From Sideroxyarcus sp. (GTDB taxonomy: Bacteria; Pseudomonadota; Gammaproteobacteria; Burkholderiales; Gallionellaceae), in the NCBI GenBank assembly GCA_030651895.1, contig JAUSBR010000006.1, forward strand, positions 1 through 64,000: a stretch of 64,000 nucleotides of DNA, written 5' to 3'. The notes under the pieces are model-generated. The model was not told where the DNA came from. It was given only the letters and a program-made list of their open reading frames with translations, and did not search any database. The first letter of the stretch is position 1; every line of letters starts with the position of its first letter. Positions 9,575 through 36,150 of this stretch are shown here, piece by piece. Both the position numbers and the translations under genes were made by a program.

Positions 9575-9596
9575 GCCGTTTGCGCGGACAAAAAAA

Positions 9597-9618
9597 TTGG
9601 GAGACCGAAGTCTCCCAA
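9597..9618 (-). terminator. Intrinsic terminator, U-tract on the minus strand
   Basis: TTGGGAGAC-CGAA-GTCTCCCAA preceded by a run of 7 A on the plus strand. Confidence 0.75.
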
Positions 9619-9973
9619 ATTGCTTTGCCTCTACTCGCTATATCGTGTGATGCTTAAGCGCTGCTCCTCCCTGATGCGGCTTCCCACGACTCCCCTGCCC
9701 GTCGCAGACCGCTTTTTGCACAGCGCCTCACCCACTTTGCTTGGTAGTAGTTGTTATTGTTGTCATTCCAGATGCCCCCGGCAACAACCGTTGCCTGTCT
9801 TGCAGCATCCTGTTCCCCCCTGTTCTTGCAGCGCACCGGACTGATTGGCAGAACGTGCTACTGCACAAGACGGTCGAATAATACCTATGTCTTTGTAAAG
9901 GGAACGTCAACAAAATGTGAGGGAAAGGTGAATTGCGCGAAAATCGCACCGGAAACGATGATTCCTCGGGAAT

Positions 9974-32459: not shown

Positions 32460-33319
32460 TATTCCTTGTTTGCATCCGGCGGCAAGGCGCCGCGCGGGAC
32501 TTTGTAACGGTTATAACTCCACAGGTACTGTTCGGGATGATCGCGAATCACCTCCTCCAGTGCAGCGTTCATCTGTAGCGGGATCGACGCTCCCGCATCG
32601 AAAGACAGCGGCGTGAAATACAGCTCGTATCCTTCTCCGCGCGGCAAACGCTCGCTGGCACACATCACCACTGCAGCACCGCTCGCTTCAGCCAATCGCC
32701 CGATCAGCGTCATGGTGTAAGCGGGACGCCCGAAGAACGGCGCCCATTCGCCCTCGCCGTTGCCTGGCACCTGGTCCGGCAACACGCCAGTCACCTGTCC
32801 TTTCTTGAGCGCCTTGAGCAACTGGCGCACGCCACCCAGATCGGTCGGCGCCAACTTCATCTGCCCGCGTTCGCGGCCTTGATGCATCAGCGTATCCAGA
32901 AACTTCCAGCGTGGAGGACGATACATGCAGATGATTGGCATGCGCGCGGCGATATACAAACCGATGACCTCGAAACAGCCGATGTGCGGAGTCAGCACGA
33001 TCACACCCTTGCCTTGCGCTTGCGCAGCCTCGAAGTGTTCCCAGCCATGGCACTGTTTGACGCTGGAAACCACCTTCTCCAGTGGACGTCGCCACACCCA
33101 GGGCAACTCCATCACCCCCTTACCCATCTCGCCGATATTGGTGTATTGCAATCCCTTCAACTCGGATTCGGAGCGCGCCAATCCTGCGTTTTGCAGATTT
33201 TCGCGCAAGCGGAACGAATATCGCTTCGAAAACAGGTAGGTAACCCAGCCAAATAGCACACCAATCCGGTGTAATGCCGACAAAGGCAAGCGCGCAAACA
33301 CTTCAAACAAAACAATCAT
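32456..33319 (-). CDS. Lipid A biosynthesis (LpxL-like) acyltransferase, second copy
   Basis: VLTPHIGCFEV, LPDQVPGNGEGEWAPFFG motifs; 4-bp overlap with the neighbour. Confidence 0.92.
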   Translation of the reverse strand: MIVLFEVFARLPLSALHRIGVLFGWVTYLFSKRYSFRLRENLQNAGLARSESELKGLQYTNIGEMGKGVMELPWVWRRPLEKVVSSVKQCHGWEHFEAAQAQGKGVIVLTPHIGCFEVIGLYIAARMPIICMYRPPRWKFLDTLMHQGRERGQMKLAPTDLGGVRQLLKALKKGQVTGVLPDQVPGNGEGEWAPFFGRPAYTMTLIGRLAEASGAAVVMCASERLPRGEGYELYFTPLSFDAGASIPLQMNAALEEVIRDHPEQYLWSYNRYKVPRGALPPDANKEY

Positions 33320-33353
33320 TCAGCTCGCCTATAACTCAAGAAGGAAGGGATTT

Positions 33354-33362
33354 TGGTATACT
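33354..33362 (+). promoter_or_regulatory. Extended -10 promoter element upstream of metK
   Basis: TGGTATACT about 40 nt upstream of the metK start. Confidence 0.4.
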
Positions 33363-33401
33363 GCGCGCCCATTTAACTACTGAAGCAGCAATCGGAGAGC
33401 C

Positions 33402-34565
33402 ATGAGCGAATACTTTTTTACATCCGAATCCGTGTCCGAGGGCCATCCGGACAAGGTTGCAGACCAAATCTCCGACGCGATCGTTGACGCGATTCTAGCG
33501 CAGGACAAACATTCACGCATCGCCGCCGAGACGCTGGTCACCACCGGCCTGGTCATTCTGGCAGGCGAGATCACCACCAACGCACAGGTGAACTTCGCCA
33601 AAGTGGCGCGCGAGACGATCCGCCGCATCGGCTATGACGACCCGAACCTGCGCTTCGACGCAGACGGTTGCTCGGTGCAAGTCTGCTACGGCACGCAAAG
33701 CCCGGACATCGCACAGGGCGTGGACAAGGCTTACGACGACACGATGGATCAGGGCGCGGGCGACCAAGGCCTGATGTTCGGTTATGCCTGCCGCGAGACC
33801 GACACACTGATGCCGTTGCCGATCTATCTGTCGCACCGTCTGGTCGAACGTCAGGCACAACTGCGCCGCGACGGTCGCTTGAGCTGGCTGCGCCCGGACG
33901 CCAAATCGCAAGTCACCATCAAGTATGTGGACGACAAGCCTTTCAGCATTGACACCGTGGTGCTCTCCACCCAGCACTCGCCGGATATTTCGCTGGAACA
34001 GATCCGCGAAGCCGTGATTGAAGAAGTCATCAAGCCCGTGTTGCCGAAAGAACTCATCAAGGGCGACATCAAGTACCTGGTGAACCCGACCGGACGCTTC
34101 GTCATCGGTGGCCCGCACGGCGATGCCGGCTTGACCGGCCGCAAGATCATCGTCGACACCTACGGCGGCGCAGCCCCGCACGGCGGCGGCGCGTTCTCCG
34201 GCAAGGATCCGTCCAAGGTTGACCGCTCGGCCGCTTACGCCGGACGTTATGTGGCGAAGAACATCGTCGCCGCCGGTCTGGCCGACAAGTGCCTGGTGCA
34301 GATCAGCTACGCCATCGGCGTGGCACAACCCACCAGCATCATGGTCACCACCTACGGCACCGGCAAGGTCTCCGACGAGAAGATCACCGCGCTGGTGAAG
34401 AAACATTTCGACCTGCGTCCGAAAGGCATCGTGCATATGCTCGACCTGCTGCGTCCGATCTACCAGAAGACGGCGGCTTACGGCCACTTCGGCCGTGAAG
34501 AACCCGAGTTCCGCTGGGAAGCCACGGACAAAGCTGCGGCATTGCGCGCAGACGCAGGACTGTAA
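33402..34565 (+). CDS. metK: S-adenosylmethionine synthase
   Basis: [56 protein letters not shown]. Confidence 0.99.
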
Positions 34566-34583
34566 TTTAGAAACACCCATCCC

Positions 34584-34664
34584 GCCGAGGGGCGCTGCAG
34601 CAGTCACCGCAAGGTGGACCTGTCAGGCTCGGCGAGGATGGCTCAACATGTAGCAACGGCGCCC
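34584..34664 (+). promoter_or_regulatory. SAH (S-adenosylhomocysteine) riboswitch aptamer
   Basis: GCCGAG(34584-34589)/CTCGGC(34628-34633) P1; GGCGCTGCAGC and CAGGCTCGGC core; AACGGCGCCC 3' strand pairing GGGCGC(34590-34595) with GCGCCC(34659-34664); directly upstream of ahcY. Confidence 0.9.
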
Positions 34665-34697
34665 ATTCATTAACTTACCAAATGAATGGAGTGCAAT

Positions 34698-36098
<1,401 letters not shown>

Positions 36099-36119: not shown

Positions 36120-36150
36120 GCGGGGGCGGACTTCCGCCCCCGCTTTTTTT
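36120..36150 (+). terminator. Intrinsic terminator after ahcY
   Basis: GCGGGGGCGG-ACTT-CCGCCCCCGC followed by seven T. Confidence 0.92.

Follow-up and report, generated by a model that had tools for sequence, protein, structure and literature searches.

On the forward strand of the 64,000-nt stretch of DNA analysed here (the window), an S-adenosylhomocysteine (SAH) riboswitch of the class RF01057 lies between metK and ahcY (Table 1). Its aptamer begins 15 nt past the metK stop codon and ends 26 nt upstream of the ahcY start codon. The ATG at 34698-34700, 6 nt 3' of the GGAG, was assigned as this start codon, for which the original prediction had given no coordinate. An in-frame upstream ATG at 34686 was rejected as the start of ahcY, since it lies inside a hairpin arm and is without a preceding Shine-Dalgarno (SD) sequence.

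Table 1. Coordinates of the genes and RNA elements of the metK-ahcY leader in the window.
Feature	Position	Strand	Evidence or remark
metK, methionine adenosyltransferase	33402..34565	+	NCBIfam TIGR01034, 600.6 bits
SAH riboswitch aptamer (RF01057)	34581..34671	+	Rfam 57.8 bits, gathering 37, E 4.8e-8, model 1-78 of 78
Pseudoknot 5' strand GGGCGC	34590..34595	+	Sequence; covariation with 3' strand across 268 loci
Pseudoknot 3' strand GCGCCC, also part of the SD-burying hairpin	34659..34664	+	Sequence, folding, comparison
Hairpin 5' arm CCATTCATT, extendable 5' to 34659	34663..34671	+	9 bp -8.0 kcal/mol; extended -14.8 kcal/mol
Hairpin loop, variable in sequence and length in relatives	34672..34680	+	Loop 2-15 nt, arms still paired
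Hairpin 3' arm AATGAATGG, extendable 3' to 34694, A34690 bulged	34681..34689	+	Sequence, folding
SD GGAG of ahcY	34688..34691	+	6 nt upstream of ATG 34698; invariant in 16 distinct equal-length genus leaders
ahcY, adenosylhomocysteinase, 466 aa	34698..36098	+	NCBIfam TIGR00936 equivalog, 603.8 bits, cut-off 497.6

The covariance-model check that had accompanied the original prediction was run, and the assignment to the SAH riboswitch class was confirmed by a match above the gathering score of RF01057 and over the full length of the model. The two pseudoknot strands, both hairpin arms and the GGAG were all found at the positions given there. The window copy has the aptamer, the pseudoknot (GGGCGC/GCGCCC, a perfect 6 bp) and the gene context of its class, with no departure in the aptamer, and the gene directly downstream is one for SAH recycling, here ahcY out of the ahcY, metF and metH context of the class.

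The source assembly (2.1 Mb, 73% complete) contains one RF01057 riboswitch, and the nearest named relatives of its AhcY are mostly from Gallionellaceae (Sideroxydans, Gallionella). In 27 of the 28 genus loci metK was found upstream of the aptamer, with a gap of 14 to 229 nt, and no match to a sigma-70-like promoter was found at 33300-34720 in the window. The riboswitch is probably intercistronic between metK and ahcY and, because the aptamer begins so close to the metK stop codon, ahcY is probably carried on a metK-ahcY transcript.

The link of the SAH riboswitch class to ahcY and metF is documented, and an ahcY-metF operon was described in other groups (PMC4239095), whereas the window has ahcY separated from the PF04020-metF pair by a strong terminator-like hairpin (36120-36150; 10 G-C pairs, T7), and a functional hairpin at this place would mean that transcription from ahcY does not simply continue into metF. 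On the reverse strand, a match to the PhrS sRNA model at 9590-9759 scored 37.2, just at the gathering score of 37; a large central part of the model is deleted in this match, which may be driven by the terminator hairpin.

The SD-burying hairpin and the competing fold

Stem energies and pairing probabilities were calculated from folds of the leader only, because folds that included the coding sequence resulted in a global misfold of the aptamer. The original prediction held that the last two C of the pseudoknot 3' strand also begin a hairpin arm, and these two bases do belong to the overlap. The overlap is not limited to them, as the stem can take all six nucleotides of the strand, with 34659-34671 pairing with 34681-34694 through G34659-C34694, C34660-G34693, G34661-U34692 and C34662-G34691, a bulged A34690, and then the nine pairs of the arms. 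The stem had a folding energy of -14.8 kcal/mol in full, -8.0 kcal/mol as the nine pairs and -2.1 kcal/mol as the seven pairs that exclude the shared C. Pseudoknot and hairpin were thus rightly seen as exclusive, but the exclusion is essentially complete in the window rather than partial because no nucleotide of the pseudoknot strand is left out of the full competing stem.

The unpaired probability of G34688 and G34689 of the SD was 0.00 without the pseudoknot and 0.93-0.95 with the pseudoknot strands blocked as in the bound aptamer, values that represent the consequence of each state and not the balance between them, since the folding program does not score pseudoknots. According to the folding models an A/U-rich 7-bp remnant can remain just 5' of the SD in the bound state. 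In the pseudoknot-blocked model the ahcY start codon pairs with the aptamer linker, a pairing that, if real, would weaken the ON state. The SD would not survive base changes at G34688/G34689; the arm pairs 34665-34671/34681-34687 lie outside both the SD and the pseudoknot.

A role of the hairpin as a terminator was rejected, since it is without a U-run and the terminator scan gave no match to it. The scan found no intrinsic terminator-like site (stem and U-run) at 33300-34720, and so none near the leader. As judged by model folding and conservation, the alternative hairpin masks the SD and is incompatible with the ligand-bound fold, which is the arrangement of a translational ON platform.

Conservation of the hairpin and other platforms on the same strand

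RF01057 riboswitches were identified in 28 of 34 genomes of the genus, 134 of 148 of the family, 255 of 300 of the order and 161 of 370 of the class, and 268 leaders were read across these four ranks. A window-type hairpin was defined as one in which positions 5 and 6 of the pseudoknot 3' strand pair with the SD GG and the tail adds four or more further pairs. As a control, the stretch between the pseudoknot strand and the SD was shuffled and scored in the same register. The hairpin was present in all 28 genus loci and in 68 of the 69 short-leader loci of the family (Gallionellaceae), compared to about 2.8% of the shuffles, although the family loci are related and these counts are not independent events. 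Its frequency was 11 of 39 in order loci (2.7% in shuffles) and 4 of 60 in class loci (1.7% in shuffles, about one expected), where two of the four were weak. All 97 short-leader loci of the genus and family have predicted ensembles in which the ribosome-binding zone is paired with the pseudoknot 3' strand.

Compared to dinucleotide shuffles, the genus hairpins were more stable by 5.4 standard deviations on average. Among the equal-length genus leaders, mean column entropy was 0.05 and 0.13 bits in the two arms, 0.46 in the loop and 0.69 in the spacer after the SD, and the loop ranges from 2 to 15 nt across the family. There are few compensatory changes inside the hairpin because the arms are nearly invariant in the family; a distant-family locus (L238) has kept the arm with a compensated pair (ATTCG/CGAAT). 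The extension through the GTGC 3' of the SD is full in 22 of the 28 genus loci and in only 17 of the 68 family loci. Covariation of this extension with the pseudoknot strand was considered and rejected; G-A and A-C mismatches are common there, and the full 13-bp stem is therefore claimed only for the window and most of the genus.

Outside the family other pairings of the same strand were found. Intrinsic-terminator-like hairpins start in the pseudoknot 3' strand at loci L070, L181, L197, L198, L210 and L228, and a simple scan placed the start of a terminator-like stem with a U-run in this strand for up to 18 order-level loci. A few entries of the scan are not real terminators; those that were window-type hairpins with T in the spacer, and those that were coding sequence, were left out of the count. 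These putative terminators in other Burkholderiales would give the same ON logic at the level of transcription. At some loci the strand pairs with the start region instead (GCGCTCACG with GGCGTG|ATG; GCGCTCGCG with CGCGAG|ATG). Among short leaders from outside the family without a window-type hairpin, combinations of pseudoknot strand and ribosome-binding site averaged -10.85 kcal/mol when matched and -9.48 kcal/mol when mismatched (standard deviation over permutations 0.18; 0 of 5000 permutations as low). The greater stability of the matched combinations, together with the terminator and start-region pairings, indicates that the design in which one strand is shared extends beyond the genus. 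SD hairpin, start-codon hairpin and terminator represent a natural series on one strand of one aptamer, and such a series allows direct tests of how a riboswitch exchanges its output module.

At L054, L064, L081, L099 and similar order and class loci the tail after the pseudoknot (GTTCAT) matches ATGAAC, the start of ahcY (Met-Asn), and the first ahcY codons may be under an RNA-pairing constraint in these other lineages. Genomes G035 and G036 (loci L032, L035, L121 and L146) and several order-level genomes have a pair of SAH riboswitches on the same contig, with a distance of about 1.3-1.4 kb between the two.

Correlated change of the hairpin and the second pseudoknot pair

Across the 268 loci, pair 2 of the pseudoknot is A-U in 142, G-C in 104 and G-U in 22, and pair 4 is C-G in 223 and U-A in 45. 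Outside the family, a C at position 5 of the pseudoknot 3' strand was found in 13 of 15 loci with a window-type hairpin, in 6 of 84 other short leaders and in 0 of 60 longer or unassigned leaders. This association is not built into the hairpin definition, because the definition takes C or U at position 5.

The hairpin and the second pseudoknot pair (A-U to G-C) change together in about 7-8 of 10 phylogenetically independent comparisons (p about 0.01). An AhcY tree with 198 rows requires 18 changes of the hairpin trait, 10 of them forced by supported branches, and the pseudoknot pair changed the same way in 7.2 of 10 independent pairs and never in the opposite way (median p 0.0156). A thinned AhcY tree inferred with another program gave 8.2 of 10 the same way and 0.1 opposite (median p 0.0078). 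The first tree, from partial AhcY sequences, was suggestive only (p 0.125), and the result was clearer with full-length AhcY. As controls, pair 4 had no association with the hairpin on the thinned tree, and pair 6 leans to C-G with the hairpin, not significantly. Third-position GC as a trait gave 3.8 the same way and 1.0 opposite, also not significant. Part of the correlation may be due to GC content or shared inheritance, and the association itself may arise either from pairing with the SD GG or from a broader requirement for a stronger pseudoknot.

We consider the chances about even that the expression platform shapes the aptamer, i.e., that the anti-SD duty moved pair 2 from A-U to G-C, so that the strand fits both the aptamer and the GG of the SD, and that swaps between translational and transcriptional modules were repeated on the shared strand. 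If true, the attached gene-control module determines part of what is called the 'aptamer' sequence in this class.

Proposed switch and alternative readings

SAH is an inhibitory by-product that inhibits methyltransferases, and cells therefore need SAH hydrolase when SAH builds up. The folding and comparative evidence points to a SAH-responsive translational ON switch for ahcY, a reading to which we assign a probability of roughly 75%. Without SAH, GCGCCC (34659-34664) and the following ATTCATT would pair with the 3' arm, the bulged A and GTGC (34681-34694), and with the SD buried little AhcY would be made. With SAH bound, GCGCCC would be held in the pseudoknot with GGGCGC, the hairpin would be reduced to its weak 7-bp remnant, and the accessible SD would allow synthesis of the SAH-degrading AhcY. 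The shared strand is transcribed ahead of the 3' arm and the aptamer would for this reason get the first chance at it; since the riboswitch lies between metK and ahcY, control at translation would let ahcY be set apart from metK on a shared transcript. From the sequence we infer that the window copy binds SAH, that the switch has this direction in cells and that control is exerted at the level of translation.

The shared strand and the direction in which ligand frees the SD, both put forward in the original prediction, withstood the sequence-level tests, namely the covariance-model match, folding with and without the pseudoknot strands, conservation across 96 loci of the genus and family, and the correlated change of a pseudoknot pair with the hairpin. 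The by-product SAH thus probably switches on its own clean-up enzyme, and the locus suggests how one six-base strand could make the SAH clean-up decision at the ribosome.

The 7-bp remnant could also persist with or without ligand, and the arms are conserved without many compensatory changes, as would be expected if the hairpin held back ahcY translation constitutively (or served as an mRNA stability element) without responding to SAH, with the aptamer acting otherwise or not at all. We regard this as unlikely, given that the pseudoknot strand ends in the very two C that face the SD GG, that the different platforms of other lineages, including the terminator-like hairpins, use the same strand, and that hairpin and pseudoknot pair change together on the trees. 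Slightly less probable again is control mainly at the level of the mRNA, where Rho or RNase would have access to the mRNA in its untranslated, SD-buried state and translation would be only the trigger. The short distance from the metK stop codon to the aptamer on the probable metK-ahcY transcript, on which a translation block could cause polarity, and the lack of a sigma-70-like promoter match at 33300-34720 are consistent with such a mechanism, but the leader has no intrinsic terminator and the conserved element covers the SD itself.

Chance complementarity, with the tail conserved because it belongs to the aptamer and the 3' arm because it is an extended ribosome-binding site, is very improbable. 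The Rfam model does have weakly conserved positions 3' of the pseudoknot; however, the observed pairing arises in about 3% of shuffles compared to 96 of 97 loci, the arms are kept while the loop length varies, and the 3' arm is located 5' of the SD, where ATGAAT answers no known ribosome contact.

Wang et al. in 2008 reportedly described the class as gene-activating and located upstream of ahcY and metH; the expected direction is ON for the class and the window copy alike, and the SD-burying platform is one of several in the class. The on/off wiring would be a well-supported local version of a known sensor type. According to a review, the SAH riboswitch of Dechloromonas aromatica metH has a P4 pseudoknot helix, and this riboswitch was used in the design of a transcriptional platform (PMC5621056). 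Competition between pseudoknot strand and expression platform has a precedent within the class: in the metH riboswitch and in the window copy the bound state has the pseudoknot helix and its strand joins the platform, although the former was used in transcription read-through tests (PMC5621056) whereas the latter is without a terminator and covers the SD. The SAM/SAH riboswitch RF01727 (Rhodobacterales, metK), a different aptamer class, likewise has a pseudoknot aptamer near the SD (PMC2864571, PMC10907184), but its bound pseudoknot contains and blocks the ribosome-binding site, while that of the window copy takes the anti-SD strand away and is expected to leave the SD exposed. The riboswitch class is known and the window copy is a member with a clearly readable translational platform; the lineage-wide account of this platform, and of the way it changes in correlation with one base pair of the aptamer, may be new.
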